DNA of 64,000 nucleotides from Protonemura montana (taxonomy: Eukaryota; Arthropoda; Insecta; Plecoptera; Nemouridae). The stretch is taken from NCBI GenBank assembly GCA_947568835.1, contig OX387608.1, positions 5,060,001 through 5,124,000 on the forward strand. Reading direction: 5' to 3'. Shown piece by piece: positions 22,558 through 61,100 of the stretch; position 1 is the first letter of the stretch; each line of letters begins with the position of its first letter. The translations under genes and the position numbers were made by a program. The notes under the pieces were generated by a model. That model was not told the DNA's origin and made no database searches. It worked only from the letters and a program-made list of their open reading frames with translations.

Positions 22558-22890
22558 GAGAGTTAAGTAAAACTGCGCTGAGTCAGGTATTGGATGGGTG
22601 ACCATCATACACATGACCAGTTCTGTTCGGGAGAGAGGTTGGACGGATGAAAGTTAGTACAGCAACTTTATTCGCTTTGCTTATCAACCTCTCGACAGTA
22701 TGGATTTGTGAAGGAATCCTGTTGTTCGCGTTGTACCGTCCTTCGGAGGGGACGTTAAGCCGATTATCTGCTAGGTGCTTTTCGACAGGAGTAGACTACT
22801 TACCAGCACCGTGTTTCTCCCTCTCCTTTTTAAGCTAGGTTCATCATCATCACCTAATCAATCACCGACGTCATTTGACTAAAACTACTG
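22558..22890 (+). repeat. 5S SINE, head truncated at its 5' side
   Basis: It begins inside the 5S head (GAGAGTTAAGTAAAACTGCG) with box C TATTGGATGGGTGACCATCA. It continues through the body: GACCAGTTCTGTTCGGGAGA, GTTAGTACAGCAACTT, CGTCCTTCGGAGGGGACGTT, and CACCTAATCAATCACCGACG near the 3' end. Divergence from the other copies is moderate. Confidence 0.8.
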
Positions 22891-24280: not shown

Positions 24281-25165
24281 GCTTGATGTCTCGTAAGGTC
24301 ACCGAAGCTAAGCAACACTGCGCTGAGTCAGGTATTGGATGGGAGACCATCATACACATGACCAGTTCTGTTCGGGAGAGAGGTTGGAGGGATGAAAGTT
24401 AAACAACACTGCGCTGGGTCAGGTATTGGATGGGAGACCATCATACTTATGACCAGTTCTGTTCGGGAGAGAGGTTGGAGGGATGAAAGTTAAGCAACAC
24501 TGCGCTGAGTCAGGTATTGGATGGGAGACCATCATACACATGACCAGTTCTGTTCGGGAGAGAGGTTGGAGGGATGAAAGTTAAGCAACACTGAGCTGGG
24601 TCAGGTATTGGATGGGTGATCATCATACACATGACCAGTTCTGTTCGGGAGAGAGGTTGGAGGGATGAAAGTTAAGCAACACTGAGCTGGGTCAGGTATT
24701 GGATGGGTGATCATCATATACATGACCAGTTCTGTTCGGGAGAGAGGTTGGAGGGATGGAAGTTAAGCAACACTGAGCTGGGTCAGGTATTGGATGGGTG
24801 ATCATCATATACATGACCAGTTCTGTTAGGGAGAGAGGTTGGAGGGATGAAAGTTAAGCAACACTGCGGTGAGTCAGGTATTGGATGGGTAACCATCAAA
24901 CACATGACCAGTTCTGTTCGGGAGAGAGGTTGGAGGGATGAAAGTTAGTACAGCAACTTCACTCGCCTTGCTTATCAACCTCTTGACAGCATAGATTTGT
25001 GGAGGAATCCTGCTGTTCGCGTTGTACCGTCCTTCGGAAGGGACGTTAAACTTATGTTCCCCCTGGTGCTCTTATGAAAAGGGGAAGTTTGCGTGGCGGC
25101 ACAAGGTTTCTCCCATCTAAGCTACCAACGCCATAAGACCAATGCCATAGCTTTAAAACACAGGG
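24281..25165 (+). repeat. 5S SINE with internally amplified head (array plus body)
   Basis: It starts in the 5S head (TCGTAAGGTCACCGAAGCTA), then runs through seven copies of a 91-bp unit, then into a normal SINE body: TTAGTACAGCAACTTC, CGTCCTTCGGAAGGGACGTT, and AAGCTACCAACGCCATAAGA near the end. Apart from the amplification it is collinear with the copy at 59738-60120. Confidence 0.85.
24310..24946 (+). repeat. tandem array, 7 x 91 bp, within the 5S SINE
   Basis: AAGCAACACTG-type starts (one reads AAACAACACTG) occur at 24310, 24401, 24492, 24583, 24674, 24765 and 24856, exactly 91 bp apart. Each unit carries 5S box A remnants, TATTGGATGGG box C and the first part of the SINE body, ending GGAGGGATGAAAGTTA. 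Units differ at a few sites (GATGGGAGACC, GATGGGTGATC, GATGGGTAACC). The repeat boundary is the short sequence AAGTTA, present in both the head and the body. Confidence 0.9.
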
Positions 25166-27544
25166 TGTGACATTCTTGCAACGGATAGACTGTAGCTCTG
25201 TGCTATCAACGTCGCTAATTACCATGGTCAGTACGACAGTGTAAATGCTTTTAAAAGTACTTTGCTTGCGTCGCTTTCAGGCGGTGGAAGTGTGCCATTG
25301 TCGTCCTTCTAATTGCAGCGTCTGTCGCACTGACCAATTTGCAAAGACTTCATTAGCGCCGGCGTGGGCTGAAAATAGGCCACGCTCGCTCTAAGTGATT
25401 TTTTTTTTAATTACGTTTACGAAAAAGACAATTAGGTGGGAATTACGTGCGAAGGTGAATACAAGTGGAAAATAGTTTTTAAAATTGATGAAATCTGGTT
25501 AGATTTGCAATAGCTAAAAGCCTTAGTACTAATTATAGTCAAACCTTTTATTTTGATGCAATCTTACTCTCCTTTAGTTGTGATAGAGTTTTCTTTAGAA
25601 CGTTTTCTTCTAGTAAGAAGTTAAATTCATTTTTTTTTTACAAAATATCAGTCAAAATTATTAGCTTCCAAGGAAAAAGTTCTTCAACCAAAATCAAACC
25701 CAAGATAAACGACTTCTTTTGAGTTTTTTTAGCAGTTGATTCGAAACGATATCTAATGTTACTAATTTACCACGTACCAGTACCAAGCTGAACGAACGAT
25801 CGATAAGATCTCCTGTTCATCAAGAGCTCACAAGACACCTTGCTCTGTCAGAGACAGGAAAGGACCACTCAACAACGTCGTCAATTCGGTGCCGTTTTTT
25901 TTTCATAAAACACCGCTTTTTTCTCAGACCAATAAATCGACCCGTCGATCTAACGTCATCTCACCAACAAGCGAAGAGGTCGACGACATCACAGACATGA
26001 CTTGAGACTTGAGACTCCAACCACTTGGACAGACCATTCCTTACGAAATACTTAAATTTAAAACCAAAAAAAAAAAATCGTGCCAACACGTATTGTTTAG
26101 GCCATAAATATTTATAAAAACGAGAAAATTGAATGCTGATGTGAATTTTTCCTTGCCTTGCTACCCGCAAGGTGTTTATCTCTGCTAAATATGAATGTAT
26201 ACGAGATTTTATCAAGAAAAACAACAATAATATCCTTTTTTATGTATGTTCTTTAATTATTTAACTTCCTAGAGGTTTGATAGCCGGAAGGGTCTACAGG
26301 GATGTACTTAATTACTAATTTCTAGTACCTGCTGTAAAGGGCTAATAAAAAAAAACACAGCCACAAAATTAATTTTAATACCGAAACCTGAACACAATCA
26401 TTGACAATTTACAAAACGAGCACCGACAGCAATGAAAGGAAACTTAAAAGTACTCCCAAATCATTAATTAGCAGTAATTTCTTGATTGAAACCTGCAAGT
26501 CCCGTTATTGTTGTGCATAAGCAAACGTAGCATGGATTAACAATAATTAGCAGTCCAGCGATAATTGCCTATCATTATGCTACCAGCCCCAACGGCTGGG
26601 TTTCAATACGTGACTGCCTCTGGGCGTCGGCTACTGGTTCCCATCATGTCCCATGTGTACTGAAGGAATCCCGTGCAAGGATTCGGTGAGAAAAGGCAGA
26701 TTTTACTCTCGTGTCTCGTGCAGAGCTGGAAATTTAAAGCGCAGATGAGTGGAGACGGTGAAATGGCAGAACGCGACTGCGTTTTGGTTTTTCAGTTTTG
26801 GTTTTTTGTTGTTTTGCAAATTAGTTTGGCCACTTCCGTTCGCTTAACTTGTTCGGAATTACCATGCAAAGCTGCGAAACTAAAAAACACCCTTAAACCC
26901 ATTTTTTTTTTTTTTTTTGGCTATGACTCAAAGTGAAAATAGGAATTGTGAGTCGCATTTGAATATAAATAATATATTTTGGTACAAGCTATACTTAGAA
27001 GTCTATGAGCGAAAATCTACTTGAAAAACATGATTTCTTCAATCAATTCATGACAATCATCGCCCTCGGCATCACACAAACGCACTGTTTTTCCCATTTC
27101 AAGGTCAAACCATGTGTATTTATAATTTCGGAAACCCCCCTGACTTTCCCTTACCGCAGCCAATTAGCATATTCCATGCGGGTGTGACAATACCTGTAAG
27201 TGGCAAAAAAATTACAAGCTGTAGCGAAACAGCGACGACCGGTAGTGTTAGTGAAATAGACTAAGTCTTAAACAACGCCATCCCTTAGATGAGTTCAGAA
27301 TTATTTTCCAGGGCTTCTCTCTGTTTCTCAAGAGAAAGATCTTTGACATAAATCAGTCGATGACACTGTAGACCCATCGAGATTTAAGGGAACTGTTGAT
27401 TTATCTGTATATTTTCTTATTTTATTTACCAATTTTGTGGGAAAGTAACCAAGAAACAGATCAAATCTTAGCTCTGAGGTAACAATAGAAGTTAGGTTAA
27501 GTTAAGTTTCGTGGATTTTCGGTTAACGCTCTTTTGTGAAGGGT
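25166..27544. other. non-coding DNA, nothing firm recognised
   Basis: AT-rich with poly-A and poly-T runs. A mildly GC-richer segment (26580-26770) could hold an upstream 5'-UTR exon of the RhoGEF gene, but no donor there is decisive. Confidence 0.4.
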
Positions 27545-28148: not shown

Positions 28149-31100
28149 GTAAGTTTTCACGACCTTGTCACTTTCGTACACAGAGATTTAAACGCAGGTT
28201 GTCATTTGAACGACCATGGTAATGTTTTGGTGGGAACGAACTTACCAAACATTTACAAAATAATTGTGTTGAACGCGTTTCTTTTGATATCTTAGACACT
28301 TCTACATCGTCTTGAAGACTTGGGACTGGATCCAAAAATTAAGTTTAAGTTTAACCCTCATAAATTCGGATGTTAAGTAGTTATCACCATGGTAACTACT
28401 ACAAAAAAATCTGGAAACACAGTCTGTGATTGGCTGAGCATCTTTAGCCTCTTTTAGCCTCTTTTGTGTTCAGAATTTTTCGAAACTTTATTTTCCAGTA
28501 ATCTTTACACATTTTCTTTTCAAAAATATTCCAAGAGCAAAATATTGGGTGCCTTTTTGAGAGCTTTTGATTTCAAGTGATTTCAAGCCAATTGCGTCAG
28601 AAACAAAATTCGTTTTCTTTCGATTAAAATATTTTTACACCTGCTTAAAGTTTAGATGCAGTGACGAGATTTATTGGTCATCGTCGACAGACAAGTGGCC
28701 TAAATACGATGCTAGCGCTCAGTTTTTAACTCTTGCAAAGAACGAAAACTCCTGTCATCTGCTTGGAAAACCATTTTCAAAAGCAGCTCTCGCTTCGTTG
28801 ACAAATGCAAATGCAGTGCCACATGCTGCCTAAAAATCTGACAGAAAGTTGTTCATCGATGACCGATGACCGATGACCGTTACGAAAATAAATCAAAATA
28901 TTCAAAATATCACAAAAATTCTTGAACGGTTTTGTTTCATGTTATTTTCATCACCATGGCAACCAGTGTTGCGTTGAAAGCAAAGTAGCGGCAATCAACG
29001 ATCGCCTGCTTACACTTTCCAAATGACACACTTTACATTGGTGCCACGCAAATTGCATACCCACCTGCATTAGAAGTAAACGTAATGTTGTGCAAAGTAT
29101 TCGATTTCATTACGTATAGAATGGCATTGTAATGATAGATAATTATGCACATTTTGTGCAACAACCTTTGATGGTATTTTACTATATGTAATCTAGTGTT
29201 GAAAATCAAGAAGAAGTCCACTCTCTTTATTCGACCATTATGCAGTAACCGGGCCTCGTTAGAGCCGAAGTTAAGCAACACTTCACTGGATCAGGTATTG
29301 GATGAGTGACCACCGAACGGTTTGGCGTGTTGGAAACACTGGTCCTCATGAGATCACCGAAGTTAAGCAACACTGCGCTGGGTCAGGTATTGAATAGGTG
29401 ATCATCGTACACACGACACGACCATTTCGTGTTAAACCTTTCTTCGAAAGGGACGGTAAACCAGTGACCATGCTGCTCTTTGGCTACGTACCGGCACCGG
29501 GGTACTCAAACACCTTTCTGGGCTAGATTAGGTGCATCATCATCCACTCATTCCCTGACCACGTAAGACCACTTTACGCATTTTTTAGGATTTTATTCTT
29601 ATTGAGTGTCCTTCCACATCTTTCTGATTCCTAAAATTATTGTAGCTTCCCATAACAGCGAGAGAGAGAGACGTAAGCGAAATTGTGAAATGGCAATAGT
29701 AGGTACCTGCTGATCCGGGGTACGGACCGCCCTACCTTACTTTCCTGGTACTGGTAGCCGATGTAAATATATCTTAAATCAATGTTTGTATTGTTGCGAA
29801 AACTGTTTGAGATCTACGGAAATCGGTTGAGTATTGTTGACCTTTTATGGGTGCTATGAAGGTAATTAATGTTCCCCGAAGTGAACATCAAAAGAGTTTG
29901 AAGTCGCAGATCCCCAAAGTTACAATGTTTTGCTTTGGGTTTGGACTCTACTTCGGATTATTCACTTTATTGCCACTATACCGAACTCCCAGAAATGCGA
30001 TGCGCACTCTCTTCCATACCTGTCGACCTAGACCATTCACCGGCAAGTATTTTATACTTATTTCTACTATAGTATTGCTGGTATATATTCTGGAATCTTG
30101 GCCGCAATCCTAGAAGGTCCCATTGTTGATTCTTCGCCGTCGATTGTTGTTCGACCATATGGATTCGCCCGGTTTATAATTTACCTGAACTCATTGTTGC
30201 GACATTTCATACCCGAGAACACTCTCACACTCCTTGTTTGAGTAGGGTTCATCCACGTGTGGGTTCATTTCATTTGCAGTTTCGCTGGCATCGAGTTGAC
30301 TTCGGTTCTATCTCTGCAGTTCTTTTAAACCGTTCGGTTTATTTTACTAGTTTTGTGGAGGTGTTTTTATAGCGATAGTTCATTAACTTCCGTGATTGCT
30401 TCTGTGATAGTTTTGTGTCAAAATGGAAAATAAGGATGGCGAGGAAAAAAGACCATCAACCCCTAACGTCCGGTTCTCCACGGATCTCGATGAAATCACC
30501 ATTGATCCCTCCAGTTCCCGTTCTCAACCACTCGTCACCCTCTCGCCGGGTCACAGTGGATCTCGCAGTACTGAGGATGGGTTGAAAAGGAAACGCAGGA
30601 TATCGTTCGTCCTGAACGATGAAAACGAGGGGCAGGCCGTTGTTAGAGAATTGGTCGAAGACATGGTCGACTCTGCGATTGGTGACGTTTACGTTGATCG
30701 ACCACAGTTCCCGGATTTTGATGATGATCTCCATGACGACGGCGATGTGTCGGTTTATAGTCTGGAAACAGAGTCCCCGTTCGTTCACTTCAAGGATAGA
30801 GTGACCACAATGTTGTTTGGTAAGAATATCGTTATGGTTTAGGGAGGATATCATTTAGCTAAAATTGTGACAAAATAGATCTACTCTTTCATATCGTCGA
30901 AGATAAAACATTAATATTAGCATTTTTTGTTGGAAAATTATTTAATTTGGGTCTCCCAAAGCTCAATTAAGATTTTTTTTAGCGTTTTTTGATTCACGCT
31001 TAGAACCATGTGTAAAACATAATAAGTAACAATTTAATAAAAATACTCTATTGGACCCAGATTAACCTAACCTAACCTAACCTAATCTAACCTAACCTAA

Positions 31101-34100
31101 CCTAACCTAACCTAACCTAACCTAACCTAACCTAACCTAACCTAACCCAACCTAACCTTACCTTACCTAACCTAACCTAACCTACAAAACATTCGATCCA
31201 TCCGTAATTTCCGTAAACCGTGTTCCTTCAAACATCCCTAATTTGTCTGATTAAGCTAAGTGATTGGCTATTTTTCGGGTTTGTATTATTTTCTAGTTAA
31301 TTTGCAAAATCGTATTTCAGGCTACCCGTACAAAGACATGATTGGTGTGTTTGTCCACGTGGGCTTGTGGGCTGCTTCGACATTCCTCTTGCTACTTTTA
31401 TGTATTATTTACCTGGTTTACGCGGAATATAAATATTTCTACGCTGCGTCCATCTTGATAATCATCAACCATCTCGTAACCATAACGTACAGGTATTTGA
31501 AAATATAATACTTCAGTGATTTAAATTCATTTGTTCGATTTTGTTTAATTGTAAACATTTTGAAGCTGGAAAGGAAGCTAGACTGGAAAAACGAGCGACC
31601 GAACCGGGTTACGAACCAATTGCCTGTCGGGTGGTCCCGAGTTCGTATCCAAGTTCGGCCTTATATTGTTCCAGTCTAGCTCCCCTTCCATTCATAGCTT
31701 GCTGGTTTCAACTCCCTAGCGGAATCACCAGGAAAACCAAAAAACTTGCAACGTTGAAGCTATTTGTCAATTTAAACCACAACTCCAAAAATTCTGACAA
31801 CTACTGCTCCATTTATTGAAATAATTTACATTTTAGCTTAGATCTATTGTAATCAAGCGATTCCAGTAATTTTGAATAGAGATAATCAATTATTTTCCTG
31901 AAATCGCGCCTATCTACCCAGATACCGCCGTGCCAAACGAGAGATCAGACACGATCCAGTCGTCTGCTCAAAACGTAGACTATTCCTCTCGATACTTTGC
32001 CGAGTGGTGACATTCCTCGACACCTTCCATTTGGCCACCTACTGGCTGGAAAACTCTTTGCAACGAAGGAAGGTATACGAAGTGACTGCAAGGAGACTTC
32101 GCTCCGATACCTCGTTCTACACCGGGCCTACGCTAGAGAGGAACGTATGGCTGGCGGTATCGCTGTACTCGGCACCGCATAGAACGATCGCCCCGCTCAA
32201 GGTGGGGGTTAGTTTGTCGTGGGACACACTGCGTTGGTAACGGGCTGTTATTTCGGACTGGTCTTTTGATGCGAGGAACATAAGATTTTCTTTGGTACTT
32301 GCTTAATTTTTCTTAACTCTTAGTTGCTTTTCTTTGTAAGTAAGACAGTCGCTGACTTATTATCTTACTCCAATTATTTTTATCTCTCGTTTTCCGAGCA
32401 ACTATCTCAATTTACTTCAAAACTATTTGGGATTTGACTGCTAAAAGTTCCTACTTTTGCAGCTGTTCATATCTAAAGCTGCATCCATGAAACTTCTGTT
32501 TGGAGTACAGCGACATTTCACTCAAAATGAACAATTTTTTCTTCGCTTCACGAATCTTATTACTTTTTTCAAGTTTTTTCAACATAAAATTCAACATGAA
32601 TATATCATACCTTTGCTCCGTCAAAGCTAAAAGACCAGTGCCACCCACTTGTTGCCCATTGAGCGGCCAGCCCCCTTCCGAAGGACTTATCATAGTACCC
32701 GTCATTGCGAAGGTGTCCTGCCTGCTTGCCGCCGCCTGCCACTGCTGGCAAGTTGTCTTCCTGCTCGCAGCCCATGCTGACCCTGTCATCAACAAACGCA
32801 TAGCCGTCAGAAATATAATCCGACTGACCATCTTCGTGATGACCATCTTTATTTGCATGGCGGTCTCATGGAATCTGCCTCTGAGGCGACAACGCATCAT
32901 CATATTTGACAGCAAGTTGTGTTTTACTGCTTTATGCGCATTGTTGCGTGAGGGGTTGGCAACAATGACTTGTCAGTTGGCACTGGGTGTAACTTCTTCA
33001 TTACATTTTTCTACATGACATGCTTCCTTTTTGCAAGTTCATTGAAGCTAAATGACTATTTGGATTAATTTGTTTGCGTTATGAATATACTGCATGCAAT
33101 ATACCTGTGGATGATTTTCAATTAAGAAAATATTGGAATTTGAGTTCTCAAACGGAAATGTGGCATCAGTGACTACTTTTCGAATCGAATAAATTGCGAA
33201 CATTATGACATTGTTGCCCACCCCAAACGAAATTCAATATTCCAACTACATTTTCAACCATTTCTAACAGACATTTCTAACCTTGTTTTCTCCATTTCAC
33301 CACACAGCGAAGAGTATGAATCTCATCCAGACATTGAAATTCCTCTGGCTGACATCGTTGATGATCTCCCGAATGATCGCTTTCCACTACAACGCGGTCG
33401 CATTTGGCTTCAAAATGGTTGAGGTTGCTTTCATCTACTGGTTAATATGCTTGATAATGGTGCTCATCATTACTCCAAACACCAAGAACCTGTGGTTCTC
33501 GTTGCTTGTTTACAAGCCCGTGCTAACTTCGGCCGTCCACATGTTCTTCTACATAGATATTGTGAGCGGCCCGAAGGAGAACTGGCAAGGCTTGATGTTC
33601 ATTTTCGGGTTCTTCACGAATCTGATCCTGATGTACTCAGCGGTAGAAGCTAACGAACTCCACAAGAATCCTATTTGGTGGATGTTGACGTTTCATTGTA
33701 TAGGGGGGTTGAATCTGATTGCTTCTACGTTTTTCCGGTCTCTCTGGAGGAAGAGGAAGGTGGTGTTCACTGTTTCGCAGTGAAAAGGAGCGGTAGGGTT
33801 TTATTGATGGTGTTTTTTTTACTATCTCCGTTCTGAAGTTGATATGTCCTATCTGAAGATTGTTTTGATCTGCACTTGACTGTAGATTTGTACTGTTAGG
33901 ATTGGCATCTTGTACTGTGTTCAAAATGTACTATGCACTTTTATTTGCATTCTTCTTATGTATTGGTTTTAAGACCTTTTGGTGGCAAATAAAGATGGCG
34001 TGAGGAACGTTTACTTGGTCGAAGAATTTATATTTCACACTTGCTAACAAATACTTGGGGTAATTTAGTATATACAAATACAGGTGAAAGACTGATAAGT

Positions 34101-37100
34101 TCTAGACCGTGAAATGCCGTGAATTTTGCAGGGGATTTTAAGCAAATGCGCTGTCATAAATTTAATGAACGCCATGATCTGTGGACCAAAACCGGCTGCA
34201 TTTAAATTGACCCGTTTTGCTTACAACAATAAGAACATGTGTCATGTATCGCTCACATATGGGCATTGTTGCATAATCCCTTTATGAATGAAACAAGTGA
34301 AAATGACTTGGCACCGAAGTGTGTGTGATTCCGCGAAAAACTTACCTGGTCAACACTGGAGTGCCAAAGCCAATTACCGATGCCTCAAATGAAAGTAGAT
34401 TACAAGTGCAGGAGAAGTGATAAGATTCGACTCAGGGCGTTTAGTGAGCATTGTACGGACAGAGAGTGGATATCTCCTTACAATGACGGCCATGTCGGCT
34501 CCATTAAGATGATCACCAACGCTAATTTTCTTTGATTTTTTCTTCCCTATATTACTATCTTTGCTGGTATGACTTCGGAAAGTCTTTGAGTATCACACCA
34601 CTTACAAAGGAGATAAAAAAATCTGCACTGTTTAGCAGTAAATTATGAATTTTAGGCAAACATGGCGGAAACATCTTGGAAATGACCGCTCTGTAAGTGT
34701 ATGCAGGCTTCGTTAGTCAACGAAAGTGACCTTATACCCGTTTGGCCGGTAGCAGAGTTTGACCCACTTTTAAACGCCGGTCGGAGAGCGCCTCATCAAT
34801 GGGCTGGTCGTAATGAGCATAATTCGCTCGGTGTGGGTGGACACTGTACGGAGCAAACGTAATTGCTTGTTGCTTTTATAAATGCACTTGTCATTGGGTG
34901 AAAAAAGAAAACGCGTTTCGAAAGAAATTATTTTTGGCTTGGTTGTCAATGTTGGAACTCTGCATCAAAGCTGATGTAGGTGATGCTCTAGTCTCTGGTC
35001 ACTTTGTTAACCGGTCTAGCTTTGGACGACATTTTTATATTTGTTTTTAAAAGCTGCTCCGTAATCGAAAGAATTTAAATAATTTCGGAACTACTAACGG
35101 CCAGTTTAACAAGCAATGGACCGGCTGGTACCATGAAGATCTGTCTTTAGCGGACAGTTCGATTTTTAACAGGGCATTGTTAAACTGACTTTTAGTAATC
35201 TAGGGCTGACTATCAGGAAATATAACGGTTAACAAAGACTTGAGTTAGAACGGAAATGTTTTTTTATTTATTCTTTATTTTTGTGTTAAGAGGAAGAAAA
35301 TGCTGGATCACAGCCGTGGTCCACAACAACGATACTCAATTTAATTTTGCCTTTTTTCTTTTCCTTTGAATCAAAATCTATTTAATTTGTTTTATCCTTT
35401 CTCTCTTCTTATGAAAAGATATTTATATATTAGGCTGAGATTAAATGACAAGTGCGATTCAAACACAAAAGGTGCATAGGAAACGCGTGCTTTAAGATTT
35501 TTTAACTTTTTATATCCATAAGAAATTTCGTTGCAACCATTTTTACCTTTCTCCCGCGAGGGTTTATTCAATTTGGAGCCGATGAAACTGCTTTTATGTC
35601 TACGGTTTTAGCAGCGACCTGCTATTGAAACCTAAAGTCGTACGTTCAGTGATTCTTTGTTGCACCTGAGATTTCTATTTTTCAAGAAAAGTTAATCTAT
35701 TTATTGTGTTCGTGACTGATCCACTTTTTAAAAAACAAGGTTCTTTCAAAATTCAGTTACTTTAAACAAATAACTGGTTGAAAATTAAATAATGGCAGCT
35801 TCTGATGTTACGACTCTCCTGTCGAACGGTTTGGCGTGTTGGAAACACCGGTCATCGTACGATCACCGAAGTTAAGCAACACTGCGCTGGGTCAGGTATT
35901 GGATGAGTGACCACCGAACAGTTTGGCGTGTTGGAAACACCGGTCCTCGTGAGATCACCGAAGTTAAGCAACACTTTGCTGGGTCAGGTATTGGATGTGT
36001 GACCACCGAACGGTTTGGCGTGTTGGAAACACCGGTCCTCGTGAGATCACCGAAGTTAAGCAACACTTTGCTGGGTCAGGTATTGGATGAGTGACCACCG
36101 AACAGTTTGGCGTGTTGGAAACACCGGTCCTCGTGAGATCACCGCAGTTAAGCAACACTGCGCTGGGTCAGGTATTGGATGGATGACCACCCTAGCGGTT
36201 TGGCGTGTTGGAAACACCGGTCCTCGTGAGATCACCGAAGTTAAGCAACACTTTGCTGGGTCAGGTATTGGATGTGTGACCACCGAACGGTTTGGCGTGT
36301 TGGAAACACCGGTCCTCGTGAGATCACCGAAGTTAAGCAACACTTTGCTGGGTCAGGTATTGGATGAGTGACCACCGAACAGTTTGGCGTGTTGGAAACA
36401 CCGGTCCTCGTGAGATCACCGCAGTTAAGCAACACTGCGCTGGGTCAGGTATTGGATGGATGAAAATACCCTCAAGTACAGAATTTACAACATGTTTATC
36501 AAACCCGTCTAAATGTCAAACATTTCTTTTTCATCAAACGAAAGCCTGTCTTTTGTTATCATTCCATCTCAGTGTTGGCAACTTTACAAAATCACTTTCC
36601 GGTATGTCTGCAAACGTTTGCATTCCTGAAGACAAGATTGCGCGGTGTCTTGAGCGCAATTCCTTGTCATGGATGCCTTTAACTGCCGCTCTTTACTCTC
36701 ACTTGATTTTATCACTGTCGACATAATCGCTATCGACATTACCAATATCGAATTTATCACTATCATCATTATCACTACAGGAATGCTAACTATCATAGAA
36801 TTATTAGTTTTTCTAATTGTTGCTCAAACCAGCAAGAGTTTGAAGAGGAAGCGAATCTGGAAACATATGCGTCCGATTCGGGTTGCGAATAGGTAACCTC
36901 CGGATAGCAAGGCATTATAGCAGGCAAGGATAGCAGGCAAGGATAGCATTATCACTATTATCACTATCAACAATATTAAAGTCGATAACTTCTGATGATA
37001 TCTTGCATTCGAAAGGTCGCAGGTTCGATTTTGGTGGCCGGCTACCCAAATTGTAGTTCTGTTATTTCTCACAAAAATTCTTAAAAATTAATTCTGGAAG

Positions 37101-40100
37101 GCCATTCTTCAAAAAAAAAAAAAATTGTCATTTGATGTTCTTTTACTCTATTTTTATAGATCTCTTTTCCTTTTTGACAAACCGTTCGGGCCCTTTGATT
37201 TGATCCGTCATTCTCATCAAATGCACTAAAAACCCTATAAAAAATTATGCGTCCAAGTAGCTCAATGGGTTAGAGCAACACTCACGATAGCTAGAGATCG
37301 GGGTTCGAGTCCCCCTTCGGGCATTACATTTTGAGAGGGTAGTGTGTTACTAATAATAAAATACTCACGTTCAGCATCAAATTAGAAGAAAACCTCAATC
37401 CGTTTGGCAAGATTCGCTCAGCGGCGATTTGGGCAGACCCACGATCTAACCCTCCAGCAAAAACTGTCTTTATCAAGTCGACTGACCTATCACGATGCTG
37501 CTAACTAGAACTACGAGCGCTAATTACCTAAAGTACAGTCTGGTACTGACGTGGTGCAATTCATCGCAATTACGGTGCAATGGATCGACGGTAGATTGCT
37601 AAACGTTTCGAGTTTTTGTGAAAGAACGTGGCAGTGCACGATTTGATTCGATGATTTGTGGTGTTTAACGACGCACTGTTTTGACAATGGGCCGTGCGGC
37701 ACTGGTCTAATGGCGTCGGTGAATGAGTGGTTGATGATGAGAATGATGATGAACCTAACCTAGCCTAGAAGGGAGGAAGGCAAATTCAGTGTCTGGACGT
37801 AGCCTACTCCTGTCGAAGAGCACCAAGGGTACCACCGGCTGAACGTCCCTTCCGAAAGACGGTACAACGCGAACAACAGGATTCCTCCACAAATCCATGC
37901 TGTCGAGAGGTTGATAAGCAAGGCGAATGAAGTTGCTGTACTAACTTTCATTCCTCCAACCTCTCTCCCAAATAGAACTGGTCATGTGTATAATGATCAC
38001 CCATCCAATACCTGACTCAGCGCAGTGTTGCTTAACTTCGGTGATCTCATGGGAACCGGTGTTTCTAACATACCAAACCGTGCACGATTTGTAATGGAAA
38101 TTGTTGCAACTTGCAACCTGAGTAGCACATGCGATCGTGGATGCATTTTTGCTAGCATGTGGTTCGTTGCAGTGAACTGATTTATTGACGGGGAAGCCGA
38201 TTATATAGTACTTTAATAATAAGATAAAGTAGCCCTTGTGCCAACATTTCCCTATTAATTCTTATGGGTTTATATATGACGGAAGAAGGCTGCATGTTGG
38301 CCATTTTAACTACTTGGTTGCTATTCTGAAGATGGTATAGATGTTCTGATGGCGTTTTTGTGACTAAAAGCTGTGAAACCATCTCGAAAATTGTTTGATT
38401 GTAGCTATTTTAGATCGAATTTCTTTGCAATTTTTTTATTTTATTTTTTTTATCAACTTCTTTACTAAATAGTAAATAGACAATTTCACATAAAATAAGC
38501 TGTCAGATAATTTATTTTCGTAATCTCTATTCTTCTTCTTATGCCTCACTCAAAACCAACTTCTACCAAACCTTTTTATCCGTCCAGCTTTGCAATTACA
38601 ATAAGTCATTTTTGCTGCTCGAAAATTTGCCGTCCTGTATTCATAAAATGAGCCCATAACATTACCATGCAAATATGCTTACCGGAAAGAAGTTATGCTA
38701 CTTTTTCCTCAGTTAATAATGTTGAAAAGATGTACAAATAAAAAGATATCAAGAATTTGAATTGTTGGTGCCTGAAATCAGTTAAAAATTAAAGTTTATA
38801 CTCATATCATTTAAATAAATCTTGATCCCTGATTGTGGGGCAGTTATAGGTAATCATAATTATATAATTTTGATGTACTGTGAAGCTAAGTACTCGAATG
38901 TACCGAGCCATCTAAGTACATCTGCCAGTCACAGACGTTTCAAAAGCTCCTCATTGCAAGTTACCATCTGCGCTGACCTCTGAAAGTCTGCAAGAAGTCT
39001 CAGCTAGCGCTCGTCACAAGCGAAACGAATCAAACGCGGATATGAAACACGCTGTCCACGTTGGCCAATCCGTCAAAGCGTGCGCTGGACAATTTCAAAA
39101 CCACGCGACACAACCGTTTAATTCCATATAAATAAAAATCAGCCATCGTTTCTCTTCCACCATTATAAATTACAAGAACCATACGCTTGGTATCTGTATT
39201 TAAAAATGATTTAATTGTTGTTGCCTTCAGGGGCAACTTCTCACTGCTGGCGAGATTGATATGTCCCTTTGCTTCCTACTTGGATATTCTCCCTCAAGCA
39301 TTCCCAGGACTAGTTTCATGTTTTTCTTCGCCATGATTTTCCAGCTCTTAGTTTTTTTGTTCTTCTGCTTTTACCGCTGGTTGGGATTTCTGCGAAGTTT
39401 CGCGTCGAGTTTCGCGTGTCGTAAGATGTCAAGGTTTGAAAGTGACTATTGTGGTCACAGGGTTAGTTTTTGTTGTTGTCATTAGTCGAGTCAGATGCCG
39501 TTTTATTTTTATCCATGTTGTTTGGTTTTTAAATATGAAAAGGTCGTTTAACTCGTATTGCATAATAAATTAGAATCGATTTTATCTCATAAAGTATATG
39601 AACTTTTCTATGTCCGCTATTTTGAAGTGTTAGTATATTATGCATTACTCCAAAGAATCATACTTTTCCACACACAATCGCAAGCTTAAATGGATTTTAT
39701 TTCTGTTAAAGAATATGGATTTTTGTACCAGAAAATGGCAATTTAAAAGGAAATTAAAAGAACACATAAAAAACCTCAGCTTTATAGAAGCAAACCCATT
39801 CTTTACTTAGTTATTGTCTCAAAATAATGCTCTGCGCTAAATGCTCCACCATAATATCCTGCACTAAATTTCTTTGAACTTCCGACCTACCAAACCTAGT
39901 TAAAAATCACCGACAATCTTGCCATTTCACGCCAAATTAGGCAATCAGCGAAACAACGACCAGCGAAATCACACAAATGGCAAATTGCTTCGCATCTGGA
40001 TTGAAATGTTACCGTTCAGAACACCGCTAGAGCGATTGTCACCGCTCAGCTGTTCACGTCTGCATCATCCCGTTGTCCGTGCTATGCCATTACAAACCGT

Positions 40101-43100: not shown

Positions 43101-46100
43101 GGGCAATTATTTTCTTTAACACTTAACACAAATCAAACACTTTCCCAAATTTATTGTTGCTAATCGGTAGTTACTTGTAATTACACGTTCGACAAACGCT
43201 ATATTAAATCTTACAAGCTTAAAATCCAATTCACCACCTTTGTTACCGTTTGACCTTGTTCGGAAATGACAAATGTTATGATAATTAATTGAACAAGATT
43301 CCCACATTAATCTCATTGTGTTCGTGAATTCTTTCTGCCTCATCACTTTCTCCCCGATTCGAGAGAGGGGAGTTGATCGATCGACTCGTTTTATCGCAAC
43401 CTAGAAAATTGCACTTGCTTAGTTCTGATCAAACTTACCATACATAATAACACATGTCGTTAGTGCGTACCTCTACTCGTACCCACTTGGGGATTTCACT
43501 TCCGTTCAGCAACCTCTAATACGAAGCGATTTTGCTCAGCGGAGAAATTACCTAGATCGAATCAAGCCGATCAAAATGCTTTGCAATCTAATCGATGCTC
43601 TTTTGAAATCGGTTACGGATTTAATTCGAAACTATCGGACAATTCGTTGTAGAGATTTCGTTATTTTGTAACGGGGGGGTATATAATTTGTGTCTGGTGA
43701 CTCTCGTCTTTTTTTCTCTGTCGTGGTGTAATTAAATTTTGGTGTGCCGCGTGTATACGGCTCACATTTTCGATTTCATTTCCCTAAACAGATAATTAAA
43801 TAGTGATCAATTGTTGTGATGTCAATTATATTTTGGTCACACTATTAAAATGGCATGATGGATTTTAAATATGTCCGAGCGATAATCAAGGGAGAAAGTA
43901 TGTAGATATTTTTTTTAATCTAATACTTTTAATATAAAAGGCACATACTTATACGTGTCAATTATTCGAGTTGAATTAGACATGTGTCAAATTGACTGCT
44001 TTATCCCGCAAATTTTTTATTAAGTTTTACCCGATTAGCTCTTTGTTATTGACCTTAGAGAGATGTTAATGTTGTTTCGTTTTAACGCTACGGGCAAATT
44101 GGGCGCCGATCGAAATTAAATACCTGTGCATAGGCTCGATTCCGTGCGGGTTCCACACACAATATCGTATCCTTTCACTGCTGTATTTATTTACCATTGG
44201 GTTTCTGAGAGAAAATCAACTCTAAACTTTAGAAAGCATGCAGTTAGCGTGTAGTGCTACCTGCGCTAGAGCGTACGTGTTTTTTTTTTGTGATATAGTT
44301 TTCGACTAGGTCTAAACTCGATTAAAACTTTGCCTGCGTAGTGGTTATCTTGTTGGGCGAAGTAAGGTTTCGGTGAGGCTGTAGCTTTGATTTAACTCAA
44401 GTTAAAACTATAAGAATTATTTTAAGATTGGTGAAGTATCTTGTTTTTGCGTGGAAACTATTGTCGAAGCTTGGCGATTACAAGGATTGATCTATCTCTT
44501 ATGAATCATTATAACGGTTTAAGTTATTATTATTATTATCATTATCATTTTTTTTTTGCAAAACTTTCGCCGAATCTGCGTTGAATATTCGCCGAAGAGT
44601 TTGCTAATAGTAAAATTCAATGACAAGGTTGAGCTCAATGATCGGATGATACTTTTAAAAATGTATTGCCGAAACTATCGCCGAAACTTCAGTGAAGACT
44701 TCGCTAGTTGAATTCAATCACAATGTCGATCAAAAAGACTTTAAGCCAGATTTTATTTAAAGTGTATTTTGAGGAAAATGTGTTGCTACCCAGCAGTAAG
44801 CGAAGGTTTGGGGAATAATTCAGTCGTTGATCTTGAACATTGACGGTCACAGTCGACACCAGTTGATCTCTTCCGCGAAATCGCCAGGAAGAAATTGAGC
44901 GATATGCGTCGAACACCTCACCGGAGAAAGGTCACAATTACTGCAAGTGAATAAAAAAAGTTAATTGCATGCAGGGTAATTTCTAAACAATTTTTTTGTA
45001 CCTCTTGCGAAATTGATTTTTTTATTCCATGTGCGTTTTAGTTTTGAAACTTCTTAATTCGATTTCCAAGAAATGGTTTTTGTGGTCATAAAAACTAGAC
45101 GTGTGATTTTTTTTGTTTGTTTTCTTAAACTTTAACATAAACATTCGGAAGTTGCAAATATCGATAGAAGCGTAGGCTACTTACCGGCATCGATTTTCCC
45201 ATCCTCCCTTCTAAGAGAGGTTGGGTTCATCATTCCCATCATCATCCACTCATTTATTGAAGCAAACAAACCAGTCCCACCCAACCCGTTGTCAAAACAG
45301 TGCGCCGTTTAACAAAGAAATAAGATTTTTCAGTCTTATTTGTTAACATTTATTAAAATAAAAATTTAATCACATTTAGGTTCTTTGAAATCTTATTTAA
45401 ATTGTAAACGCTTGCAATGCGTGGGGTATTTTATTATTATGAACACTGCTACCGTCCCAAAAATTGATGCCCAAACGGGGACACGAACAATGACACCAAA
45501 CGGGAAGTTCCCCGTTTGGGCAGCAATATTTGAGACGGTAACGTAGTGTTCATAGTAATAAAACACAGTTAGGTTAGCCACATCGAAATATCTGAGCCAG
45601 TTTTTTAGTACACGACGTTTCAAACAAGCAACTCTCGATCTCGATCATGCCAATCAGATTCCAATCAAATTCCATGCTATGTTTTCGCTGACCAATTGAA
45701 TAATGTGCATCAATCGATAAAAAAAAAAAAAAAAGACAGGTGTTTGCAGTTTACACGCTCGTGATTGGTCGACACCCAACGGTATTGAAAAGGGAAAGGA
45801 ATTCCTTCAAGATAGGATACTCGTTCTTGAGCATTCCATTCGACAGTTTTGAAAGTCGTTAGTCGCCCTTTGACACGAGCTGGGAGACCGACTACGAAGC
45901 TTCAGAACATTTCGCACTTTCAGTTTTCTTGAGGAGCAGAAATTATTCAACTTTTTTTTCATGCTTCTGTCCCGTGATGTCAATTTGCCGAGTATGAAAG
46001 TTACAAGACGTTTTTTTACACTGTGGCGCCAAACATCCATATTGAGATGAGACTGACAGTCTAGCCCGTGAGAGAAGATGCTAGCACAAGGACTGACCCT

Positions 46101-49100
46101 GCATTGCTACAGTCTAGCCTGTGAGAGAAGATACCAGCACAAGGACTGTCCCTGCATTGCTACAGTCTAGCCCGTGAGAGAAGATGCTAGCACAAGGACT
46201 GACCCTGCATTGCTACAGTCTAGCCCGTGAGAGAAGATGCTAGCACAAGGACTGTTCCCTGCATTGCTACAGTCTAGCCCGTAAGAGAAGATACCAGCAC
46301 AAGGACTGTTCCCTGCATTGCTACAGTCTAGCCCGTGAGAGAAGATGCTAGCACAAGGACTGCCCCAGCATTGCTACAGTCAAGCCCGTGAGAGAAGATA
46401 CCAGCACAAGGTCTGCCCCAGCATTGCTACAGTCTAGCCTGTGAGAGAAGATGCTAGCACAAGGACTGTCCCCCAGCATTGCTACAGTATAGCCCGTGAG
46501 AGAAGATACCAGCACAAGGACTGTCCCCTGCATTGCTTCAGTATAGCCCGTGAGAGAAGATACCAGCGCAAGGACTCTCCCCAGCATTGCTACAGTCTAG
46601 CCCGTGAGAGAAGATACCAGTACAAGGACTGACCCAGCATTGCTACAGTCTAGCCCGTGAGAGAAGATACCAGCAATAAAACTGTCTCCAGCATTGCTAC
46701 AGTCTAGCCCATGAGAGAAGATACCAGTACAAGGACTGACCCAGCATTGCTACAGTCTAGCCCGTGAGAGAAGATACCAGCACAAGGACTGTCCCCTGCA
46801 TTGCTACAGTCCAGCCCGATTACAGCTCGAAAACAAAACATCTTCTCATGACAAAATATCTAGAGCAAAAGCAAAATGGCGGATATCAACGGAGAAGATA
46901 TGAAGCGTTTTTTTTCTTCAAAATGGCAGTTGACCCGTAGGTCACCCGACAACGACCGGTGGCGCCTCTATCGGGAAGTAATGTTTTCCAGTTGAATGGA
47001 TAAGAGCTATAAATCGACCACATTGCGCGACCGATGATTAGAATATTTGTAATCCCCGTCGCCATTCTGCACGCAATATAAACTCGTTGTAACAGATGGT
47101 GTAACAGCTTGTTATCATTTTGATTGACAGTTTAACAATGATGGAGCTATACTCTCTCGTGTCCTAGCCGGTTGAGATCTGCCATTATTTTCTATCATCT
47201 CTACAATTAAGTTAACTACAGAACCTCGCTGCTCGATCGGTGACCTACGATAGGCCTGTGTCAGCCAATGTGCGCCTTATGATTGTATTTAATTCTTATG
47301 CATTACACGAGGAAAAGAACATTGAAAATTGCAATACTCTATGTTGGTTCGACGAAAAAGAACAAAAAAACGGAGTAAAAACAAGCTGGGAACACATTTT
47401 CTATCATTTTAATACATTCACTAATGATAGCTTCACTTTTAAACTAAAAAAAAATCTTCTGATTTCGTCATCGCTTTCAGTTTCCACGGTAAATTTTTTT
47501 GTGAATTTTTCCACACCTCTCCATGTCTTGAAAAGTGTCCATGTCATTACCGGCCAAAGCGTCCACCCACCTCGGTTGTAAACGCAACGCAATTACTCTC
47601 CACTGAATTTTGAATGTAAATTACCGAAAAACCTGCATGTAACCACGGTGATTTTGTGAGTGACCATCGCGGCTATGCGTTCCTGATTATCTCACGTCCA
47701 TTGAAGGCGCATGTGGGAGACTTTATTGCTTTCCTGGTTTGGAGGTGGACTTAAGATGACCACTTCGTGGTTTGTCAAGATGAGGTTGATGGCCTTTTGA
47801 TGTGTTCAACGCATGACTGAGGGGGAAATTGGCGATATAAATTGTTTTTTTCTGAAGTTTGAAATTGTAGTGAGAAGTTTCTTCGAGTCCGGAGGTCATA
47901 GGATTTGAAATGGTGTTTGAAAGTTGATTGACATTATTTACAGGATTAAGAATATATTTTTTCAGTGGTATTTTAAATAATTAACAGTCTGTTAATATAT
48001 TATTTGCTTGGTAACAGCAGAAAATGTATTTTTTCGCTTATGAAATATGATGTAAATTGCAAATTCTTGCTATGCGCGGGGTATTTTATTATTAGGAACT
48101 CTAAAAACCTATCATCGATGTCCGTTTGGGTATCTTTTGAAAAGATAATAGTTTTCCTAATAATAAAATTAAAAATTAAAATATTTTCTTTATTAACGGT
48201 CTGTTAGTTTCTTAACGTGCCACTGAAAATCTGTTCATAACGTATATTTATAAACTTGACATACTTTTGAGCATTAAAAGTCAGAATTATTCATTAGTAA
48301 TTCTCTGTGGTTATTGAAAAGGTGTTACATTTTTTTGCTGGTGCCCAATTCGGTTAAATATGGGTTTATTTAATCCGCTTTTAACAGATTTTCTGTTCAA
48401 AAATCATTTAAATTGGTTTCATCTAAACGATCCAGTAAACACCTCTAAATTTAACCTAAAATAATCGCTTTTAACTCATCATTAAACCACTGACCAGCAC
48501 TAAACTGGCATCAAAAACTCCTTTTCAATCAGCTTTTGTAATCTTTATTGTTTTCTAAAAGCATGAAATCGATTTTTTGATTATTTCACCCTTTTCTCGA
48601 TCTCGATAACGCATCATTTCTGAGCAACGCAAATTCCTATCTTACGTCAAGAGTGATGATGGTAAATTTCTCCTCAGGACCAAAGCAATCTATGATTTAG
48701 ATGCTAGAAAAAAACTCGTGTTCTGGCGCGAGATCGTTAGGCTCTACACCTTGAACTTTCTAAGACGTTGTACGTACGCTTGACTTTTCAACGAGAATAG
48801 TAGAAGATTTTTCTGAAAGCCTATGCTCGTAATAACATGATATTTAAAGCAAGGTCGAGCACAGTTATTACAAACTTTTTACAATGAGTTTTTTCCAACG
48901 TGAAAAGGTTGAAAAATGAAGACTCGCTTCAAGCTTGCGCGACAAACTAACAGATTCAATTACAAATATATTGCATTACCAGTTTTTTTTTTTGGCTTGT
49001 GTTTGTGTGACGCATGCATTTTATTTTTATCCACTTGACAATCGTCTCGGATTCGCAAATGCAATTAAATATCGCAACGAGGTCGCACGATCTACCCACA

Positions 49101-58100: not shown

Positions 58101-61100
58101 AAATCTTTTGCGTCGCGCACCTCCGCCGCTAGGCGTTAAACTAGCGCTAGACGCCACGTATCTACTAGCGCTGATGCTCAACGCCCGAATCACGAACTGA
58201 CAAAACGGATTTTTTTCCCGTTGAATTAACGGTCATTTCTGTTTTCGGTCGCGGTTTCTCTCGAGTTTGCTGTGGCCCCCACACGAATTTGCGAATTTAC
58301 CATTTCGTGAAAGTGAAATTTGGTCCTTTTTTGCACGGTGCTTGTTATTTGGCTAGTGATGACCGCATTTGAACCCTCAGGGCTGGATTACAGATTTTTT
58401 TTAGGAGAGTAATATTTCGCGGTATTTTGATTGTGGGTGGATAGATTATTAGATGGAATAAGCTACGATGATTCGTTTTTTTTAGAGAGAAAACGTAATC
58501 GGCTGATTTCGCAAACGTGCTGGAAACCGTGAGAAATTGGATGAACAGTTATGCATTTTTACTTACATTCTTTCACACAATGCGGGCTTTTTTTTTTAGG
58601 AAAATATGAATTCTAGGTATAGTTCGACAGAAAAAGTTATGAATTACCCGCGCTCAAACCTGTTAGTTATATGGATGATGATAAAACACACAGAGAATAA
58701 TTAAATATGTGTCTTTCATGAGTAATAACTGTGTCCAAAGATGTTTTTTAGGTACAAGGGGTGGTGTTTTCCGAAAGAGAACTCATTTTTAAGAGGATCG
58801 TAGTCAGACTTGGCTTAAACGTTTACTTTTCAGAGCCATATAGATAATTTTACAGGAGAAATTCACACTGCTGTACTGGGAACTTTTTTTTTTTAGTAAA
58901 TTTACCACGCGACTTTGACATACAAGTCGGCGGTGAAGGGTCACTCCATGTTTTGATGCAGTGGTCAGTAATTGCTGCACCTATTTACCGATTATAATTA
59001 CCAATCATCGAAAGTATGATAACAAGTTTTGTCCGACCTTTTTTTTTTGCATCTCATAATTTTGCACAGCAAACTTTCTCGATGCGTCCTACAGCAATAG
59101 GTGTGCACCGTGCGCGCTCATACGAAGATAGGTAAAGAAATATTAAATTGAAACGCTCGAAAGTGTCCTTATAAAAGCGATGAGGTCATTTAATTTTTGT
59201 TAAAAGTGAGTGGTTAGATCAGCGGAGGTCATACGTGTTACATTACCTGCATAATCAATTCGGTATTTTCATTGGTTTCATATTTTTGGTGATGCCAACT
59301 TTTACTGCAACGAATTTCTGAACAACTGATATTTAAACATTTGCGGGTTACCAACGAGGTGCGGGTGTGCGCATTGTCGATTTTCTTTTCATAATCGAGT
59401 TCTGGAAAACAACCCGGGGTCGGAGGTTTCGGAATTTGATAGGAGGTACAAAGATGGAACTTCGGTGAAATGTTTTATACAATTAACCTCCTCCATACAG
59501 AGGTTTATTTTAAAAATAAAACATGCGCATGGTTGACGAAATGCAGATAAATCGCAATTGCATAACTTCAAAGAAAAAGGTCGAATGTAAATCCACTTAA
59601 AACATAATCAAATTATTTAAATTTCTTGTAAAATTTTTACAATCTTGGCATATGAATGTTCCGTTATTGGCAGGCGTATCTATTTCTTTCTCTACACAAC
59701 GACAGAGCAACAAATTACCGTTTACGTAGTACTCATTACTGAGCCAAGTTGGTCACCGAAGTTAAGCAACACTGCGCTGGGTCAGGTATTGGATGGGTGA
59801 CCATCATACACATGACCAGTTCTGTTCGAGAGAGCAGTTAGAGGGATAAAAGTTAGTACAGTAACTTTACTCGCCTTGCTTATCAACCTCTTGACAGCAT
59901 GGATTTGTGGAGGAATCCTGTTGTTTGCGTTGTACCGTCTTTCGGAAGGGACGTTAAGCCGGTGGTCCTCTTGGTGCTCTTCAACAGGAGTAGGCTATAC
60001 ATGCTGGCAACGGTTTTCTCCTAGTCCTTCTAAGCTAGGTTAGGTTCATCATCATTTATATCATCACCCACTCATTCACCGACGCCATTAAACCAGTACC
60101 ACATGACCTGATGACAGTGAAACTGTCACCAATGATAAATAGTAAAACTTTGTTGTCATAAACTGACATTTGCTCGTGTTTTTTTTTTAGGGTGGAGCAT
60201 CGCTTCTTCTCGCGAATCTCGAGAAGGAAAAAGAGCTGCTTAGGATTTTCCTGCGAGTTTCCCAGATGGAAAATGCTGTGCTGCGACGAATGAACCTCAA
60301 CTCTTTCCTGATGGTAAGCAATCGCGTCCCTTTTTGTAAACATACGTTCTAACAGCGACCATCCAATATTTTAATGATGGTATCGCTTGGTCTTTGCTTC
60401 AGCTGAAAATTTGGTAAACATTTTTCTAATTACCTCAATGCATGAACCAATTATTTTCTTCCTAACATTTGAGAAAGATTCCTGTCTGCATTGTTTTGAT
60501 TTTGCACAGGTTAGTTGATTGCCATCATCTTTGGACTTATAACTTTGGTCTTCGGACTTACAACCGAATTTTCGAATACTGAAAACCAGGTCTTTAAATT
60601 AACCAGCTTTAACGGCTTCACAGTACTGGGTTTACTTGGGACATACAAACTCCTCTCGTCTCAGAATGATATTCAGTGTAGCTATATCCCTAACAAGGGC
60701 CAGGTTTTGGGCATCCAACCCCCCACGGTGCCAGACCCCGAACGGCCGCTGGGTGGAAGCATTCTTAGCGGTCTTGGTGTGAATAACAACACCCATTTTT
60801 TGACGGGCCGCAGCGTTTAGGGGAGTAAATTAGAAACGAAGCGTGTAATTACCGTCGAAGAATTGACAGGCACGCGTGATTTGGGGTATCTTTGTCGCTA
60901 GAGGCGTCGTGTTAGACTCGATGCGTGGGGTTTTTTGTTTTTGTTGAGAAGATTTGTGAGGTGGCTTTCGTATGAGATTGTTTTTTTTTTTGTGTTCGGT
61001 TTGTGGTTGGTGGTATTTTTTTGTATTGATGTTTTGTGTTTGATGTGAATTGGTTAGCTAGTAAACAAGAATTTATTGACAAGTTAATTAAAAATTAGAA

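Follow-up and report, generated by a model that had tools for sequence, protein, structure and literature searches.

The window, the whole 64,000-nucleotide stretch of DNA analysed here, carries a tandem array built from the head of a 5S-derived SINE. Comparison of copies showed that the parent element consists of four modules, A-B-C-D: A, a 46-bp 5S-like 5' sequence; B, 45 bp containing box A, IE and box C of the 5S promoter; C, a 46-bp body; and D, a tail of about 290 bp. The 92-bp unit of the head array is AB, and the 91-bp unit of a separate array at 24306-25166 is BC. Box names follow the covered part of PMC8010984. The features were as follows:

35823..36463, + strand: head array (AB)7 of seven units, each 92 bp long except the fourth (93 bp); a 277-bp higher-order repeat is present, and no body or tail lies behind
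35823..35914, + strand: unit 1, which begins CGAACGG and so lacks the first 2 bases of the 5' end of copies L071 and L086 (ACCGAACGG)
35915..36191, + strand: units 2-4, one copy of a three-unit block (92 + 92 + 93 bp)
36192..36463, + strand: units 5-7, a further copy of that block, ending inside unit 7
24306..25166, + strand: (BC)7D, body-type 91-bp array with SINE tail
29269..29573, + strand: B-A-B multi-head copy, 5'-truncated, with most of the body missing, a degenerate tail and the same BA junction as the array
37651..38082, - strand: single-head ABCD copy (w38), head slightly 5'-truncated, with a perfect 12-bp target-site duplication
22561..22885, + strand: 5'-truncated BCD copy
59759..60122, + strand: 5'-truncated BCD copy

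Tandem Repeats Finder reported a period of 92 at 35823-36458 (6.9 copies, score 1123) and a period of 277 at 35823-36463 (2.3 copies, score 1203), confirming the 92-bp 5S heads and 277-bp higher-order repeat described in the first-pass annotation. Relative to the coordinates it gave for the array (35824..36463), the start lies one base earlier, at 35823. Units began at 35823, 35915, 36007, 36099, 36192, 36284 and 36376, showing that the single 93-bp unit noticed earlier is the fourth. Units three apart were on average 97.5% identical, compared with 94.3% for neighbours. As had been proposed, a single block is present twice, as units 2-4 and as units 5-7; either of the two may be the older. No SINE body or tail was present behind unit 7, where the flank begins directly, and no target-site duplication was visible by eye around the array. 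Two other repeats were observed in the window. An interstitial (CCTAA)n tract of 24 copies lies at 31063-31184; TTAGG is the telomere repeat of many arthropods. A 53-bp minisatellite at 46056-46818 looks related, by eye, to a 54-bp one at L064:1-152, which adjoins another head array, on C14.

Rfam 5S matches in the window fell on the head array (three), at 37970-38078 and at 29316-29427. In both tandem units, module B was identical to the genome's own 5S gene across box A and across box C, and altered in between. The family thus carries box A, IE and box C in a 5S-related head; its ABCD copies add an unrelated body and a simple-repeat tail (with an AAT-like end in L066 and an AAAT-like one in L083), both missing from the window array. 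Module transitions were scored in the window, in 18 array loci, in L066 and in 12 loci taken at exact BA junctions; most of these 32 sources had been picked for holding an array or a BA junction. Between modules no more than 12 bp apart there were 199 AB, 180 BA, 78 BC, 62 CB, 15 CD and 1 AD transitions and no other, with the duplicate pair L050/L051 counted twice. In these sources A and C each take turns with B: AB, BA, BC, CB and CD account for 534 of the 535 transitions. The same module order was found in the window's other SINE copies, which were not junction-picked, and in four copies picked by their tails (L083-L086). Some arrays were mixed: L079 has four heads and then BC units, and in L076 and L080 a BA join comes after BC units. 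In L066 (C1:20983500-20989500) a 2.7-kb middle separates two SINEs with 91-bp arrays whose tails face each other, and in 1-kb samples three of four similar inverted pairs (L067, L068 and L070) matched this middle at 93-96%, with no match in L069; this suggests a larger composite or foldback-like element.

Junctions were counted across the 258.5-Mb genome at no more than 3 mismatches. The BA (head-head) junction, searched as a 30-base pattern, had 2,396 matches, the BC (head-body) junction 35,341, the CB (body-head) junction of the 91-bp array type 26,402, the CD (body-tail) junction 9,290, AB 9,714 and A with its 5' end 6,817; every reversed control gave 0, so the BA junction of the window is not a chance sequence. 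The BA figure is for one junction sequence, and head-head joins with other breakpoints would be missed. The counts balanced across modules, with 9,714 + 26,402 into B, 2,396 + 35,341 out of B, and 26,402 + 9,290 out of C. CB joins outnumbered CD joins by about 2.8 to 1, and roughly a third of the A heads counted would come after B, both ratios being rough because the search patterns differ. BC is the major tandem form of the family and AB the minor one. Single-unit copies made up three of the four tail-picked copies (L084-L086) and three of the five copies in the window that combine B with a tail; tandem repeats are therefore common in the family, yet in part of its copies only, and the idea that tandem repetition is the SINE's ordinary state was dropped on these counts. 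That one SINE family formed tandem DNA by two different junctions, as first annotated, held up, and the 91-bp array at 24306-25166 is real. The accompanying view, that the amplification was born within a 12-kb stretch, was not supported in that form: the BA junction recurs 2,396 times in the genome, and 18 other loci share the 92-bp register. Likewise, the two-head copy near 29.2 kb is real, has the same BA junction and is a sibling of the array; its supposed role as the starting state is conjectural.

The CB join sits within a shared AAGTTA. At the BA join, GTGACC is followed directly by ACCGAACGG. Two copies, L071 with two heads and L086 with one, begin straight after the target-site duplication with ACCGAACGG, a sequence that also forms the downstream half of the BA junction; the join thus uses the SINE's true 5' end. 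L084 begins ACCGAATGG after a 7-base repeat (by eye). A second head would thus have been gained when the exact 5' end of the SINE was joined just after the box C end of another head. We infer that a template jump led from one RNA's 5' end onto the end of box C in a second RNA; joining at the DNA level may have occurred at the same point.

The two-headed element L071 (ABABCD) lies between perfect 12-bp target-site duplications and is inserted as one unit, showing that the head duplication was able to retrotranspose. The same structure was found in L073, with (AB)6CD in L075 and BABCD in L082. Perfect 12-bp duplications flanked 3 of 21 copies (L071, w38 and L086), one of them (L071) multi-headed, several of the 21 being tailless or cut by the fetched ends. 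Among 12 seemingly isolated loci with the exact junction, eight had two to four A modules on one strand; of the rest, L075 had six, and L077, L081 and L082 had one A behind at least a partial head. At least a partial tail was present in seven of the 12 (L071, L073, L075, L077, L078, L079 and L082). No tail was detected behind the heads in L087-L090, of which L088 continues into the body. Multi-headed (AB)nCD copies would accordingly be elements that spread by retrotransposition, as target-site duplications indicate for one copy and as we infer for the others.

At some loci the heads would then have multiplied further by block duplication, giving 7 to 15 units in the fetched arrays, probably through unequal exchange or slippage. 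The arrays probably grew locally: units resemble one another more within a locus than between loci, and block repeats vary from locus to locus. Mean unit identity was 95.1% within loci and 92.1% between them, a difference of 0.031 compared with at most 0.006 in 1,000 label shuffles (L051 omitted). Units were more alike within than between loci at 18 of 19 loci, the exception being L058 (90.3 vs 91.1). Among 119 unit variants, 20 were private to one locus yet present in at least two of its units; 56 occurred in at least two loci, a finding also compatible with movement of arrays as sets of several units. The repeated block was three units long in the window and five in L054. The window and the 18 fetched loci share one 92-bp register, which was partly selected for since the window array served as the query, and their immediate flanks differ except in L050/L051. 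Four of the 18 others continue into SINE body or tail (L053, L058, L060 and L063), as does L062 by eye. Arrays started at unit position 1-2 in 6 of 19 cases (the window, L048, L053, L055, L064 and L065), the window array without the SINE's first two bases. L050 and L051 (C15, 1.54 and 1.50 Mb), about 41.7 kb apart, each hold a 13-unit head array. The two arrays match and the 1.5 kb downstream of them is identical, but an upstream 47-bp array has 22 vs 30 copies; the pair would be either a recent segmental duplication or an assembly duplicate.

The longest head array had about 15 units (about 1.36 kb) among the best 40 of 3,000 candidates scored. The 58 places with long arrays were clustered, with a median nearest-neighbour distance of 0.19 Mb compared with 1.54 Mb under uniform placement, and 43 of them were on C11-C15. 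None of the 58 was on the 29.6-Mb contig C16, where about 7 were expected by length; C16 is perhaps a sex chromosome. In the outer 40% lay 28 of the 58, which was not significantly distal (simulated fraction 0.13). All 36 exact BA clusters on C1-C4 were in the outer fifths, and 4 of 27 on C5 were central. Central positions thus held 4 of 63 exact BA clusters compared with 31 of 93 single exact heads (p 6e-5), the two sets differing in that clusters came from C1-C5 and single heads from C1 and part of C2, each list being its first 100 places and clusters being collapsed by hand. In the stretch covered by both lists there were 7 BA clusters, 0 of them central. SINE tails on C1 were themselves denser toward the ends. 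A non-SINE minisatellite of at least three copies lay within 2 kb at 10 of 18 array loci (units of 41, 47 and 68 bp and others); when these neighbours were compared with the SINE modules, the 68-bp unit alone matched, over 22 bp of the tail. The placement would fit growth where tandem expansion comes easily, perhaps in regions of much recombination.

Three further observations concern other sequences in the genome. Gene order on the mitochondrial contig follows the arthropod ground pattern, which makes the genome probably that of an arthropod, and a tRNA-Leu-like stretch lying between cox1 and cox2 is in keeping with Pancrustacea. Matches to cox1 were found on a chromosome-sized contig at C4:5760925-5762262 and C4:5776811-5777755, at a distance of 15,886 bp, which exceeds the length of the mitochondrial contig (15,885) by a single base; the pair would be either a tandem nuclear mitochondrial insert or a misjoin. 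At the start of another contig (C11:1-106000), 5S matches come in recurring groups, with two on the same strand and a third on the opposite one. The period is initially about 9.5 kb, as might be expected if they belonged to a larger gene unit that is itself repeated.

Taken together, it is likely that a SINE head was joined to another, spread by retrotransposition and then grew into arrays in place, with no host function needed, the window array being a SINE-derived minisatellite whose body and tail were lost or never present. Weighing on the other side are the missing tail and target-site duplication of the window array, the few other arrays that continue into SINE body or tail, the small share of copies with perfect duplications, the unit variants common to several loci, the behaviour of L058, and the choice of loci and BA junction by the array itself. 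Alternatively, whole long arrays could have been inserted by reverse transcription of multi-head Pol III read-through RNA, with little growth in place. The TTTT run that stops Pol III is absent from the 92-bp/91-bp unit consensus and from 14 of 19 arrays, L075 holds six heads with body and tail, and 56 of the 119 variants are common to at least two loci, all consistent with such insertion. However, variants and block repeats that are peculiar to single loci speak for growth once the element was inserted, and a body or tail directly behind the array is absent in 14 of 19 cases, the window included; we regard wholesale insertion as unlikely. We think it quite improbable that tandem heads were kept since each holds a complete Pol III promoter that would offset upstream signals missing from a retroposed 5S promoter. 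Both tandem units do contain the whole of module B, with box A and box C stretches identical to the 5S gene, and type 1 promoters have been proposed to depend on upstream signals, a proposal repeated in the covered parts of PMC3272025 and PMC8010984. Within arrays, by contrast, the mismatch was 0.041 for module B and 0.045 for module A (0.035 and 0.031 without CpG sites), giving no sign of selection on the promoter half. The predicted RNA fold of one unit was no more stable than shuffles (z -0.01).

The first-pass annotation had also suggested an early stage of a centromere- or 5S-like satellite, and the array is indeed tandem, higher-order, 5S-related and locally more alike. This reading was abandoned as very improbable. 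Head-array matches to the Rfam 5S model scored 43.7-45.5 bits compared with 108.7-117.5 for the 47 genome 5S matches scored, and the window array has no complete 5S gene at the genome's own score. Among the best 40 candidates per search, arrays were short and dispersed instead of long and at one place per chromosome, none exceeding the 1.36 kb given above for the best 40 of 3,000; the outer position of the C1-C4 clusters and the 4 of 27 central on C5 would also argue against a centromeric role. Tandem repeats are prone to misassembly, yet 40 array places (65 rows merged by hand) and the different flanks and locus-specific variants of the 19 arrays read leave an assembly artefact with almost no credibility.

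Comparisons with known systems refer to the covered portions of the papers cited. The head array is best filed as being like the SINE-derived satellites (sSats) of squamates (Vassetzky et al. 2023, PMC10702118); the source here is an arthropod 5S SINE, whose two unit types have one promoter in common. An sSat has at least four tandem units matching a portion of a SINE, and the window array has seven; the terminal unit of an sSat is expected to reach an end of the SINE, and here 6 of 19 arrays began at unit position 1-2. As in squamates (PMC10702118), the tandem portion can include the promoter, several unit types occur per genome, loci have their own subvariants, and many loci are short. Squamate sSats derive from tRNA-type SINEs and reach hundreds of units at some loci (PMC10702118), whereas the SINE here is of 5S type. 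Squamate sSats prefer subtelomeric regions (PMC10702118); here 4 of 63 BA clusters were central and the 58 long arrays were not significantly distal. Also unlike the squamate case as covered (PMC10702118), the two unit types share a 45-bp promoter module and are mixed in single arrays, and target-site duplications flank a two-headed copy. The squamate study points out that multimers can arise from SINEs and that dimeric SINEs are known (PMC10702118). In the German cockroach, the dimeric SINE Sbg9 likewise consists of two joined elements transposing as one; it joins two different SINEs (PMC9191728), whereas in the present family a single head recurs, from twice to many times. Insect 5S SINEs are known in Lepidoptera, where HaSE3 (PMC3272025) and PxSE4/PxSE5 (PMC8010984) likewise have a 5S head with box A, IE and box C, an unrelated body and a simple-repeat tail. 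Head arrays like the present ones are not described for them in the covered parts of these papers, whose main texts contain the word 'tandem' 0 times. Hy/Pol III of Hydromantes and Satellite 1 of Xenopus are likewise tandem families from a SINE Pol III head; their heads are tRNA in a review table (PMC9659126), and here the head is 5S. The PcP190 satellite of frogs (PMC11675491) is likewise a tandem repeat with a 5S-like part; its unit of about 190 bp has a 120-bp 5S-like region and a hypervariable region, and the abstract makes no mention of a SINE. As far as the literature on SINE tandems, 5S SINEs and 5S satellites was covered, a 5S SINE with two unit types sharing a promoter, mixed arrays and a two-head copy between target-site duplications is new.

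The step from a dispersed retrotransposon to a tandem satellite is seldom seen in progress. Here, one compact genome has single-head copies, a two-head copy with target-site duplications, and mixed and longer arrays, and thousands of junctions of two kinds coexist in it. Comparison with relatives could order the events of joining, spread and local growth. A tentative and rather doubtful extension is that module B acts as an exchange joint, with mosaics (AB)n(BC)mCD arising during reverse transcription by jumps of RNA 5' ends onto the box C end and by slippage at the AAGTTA microhomology, then transposing, seeding minisatellites and possibly offsetting a weak type 1 promoter. If true, the SINE family would thereby make its own tandem promoters.
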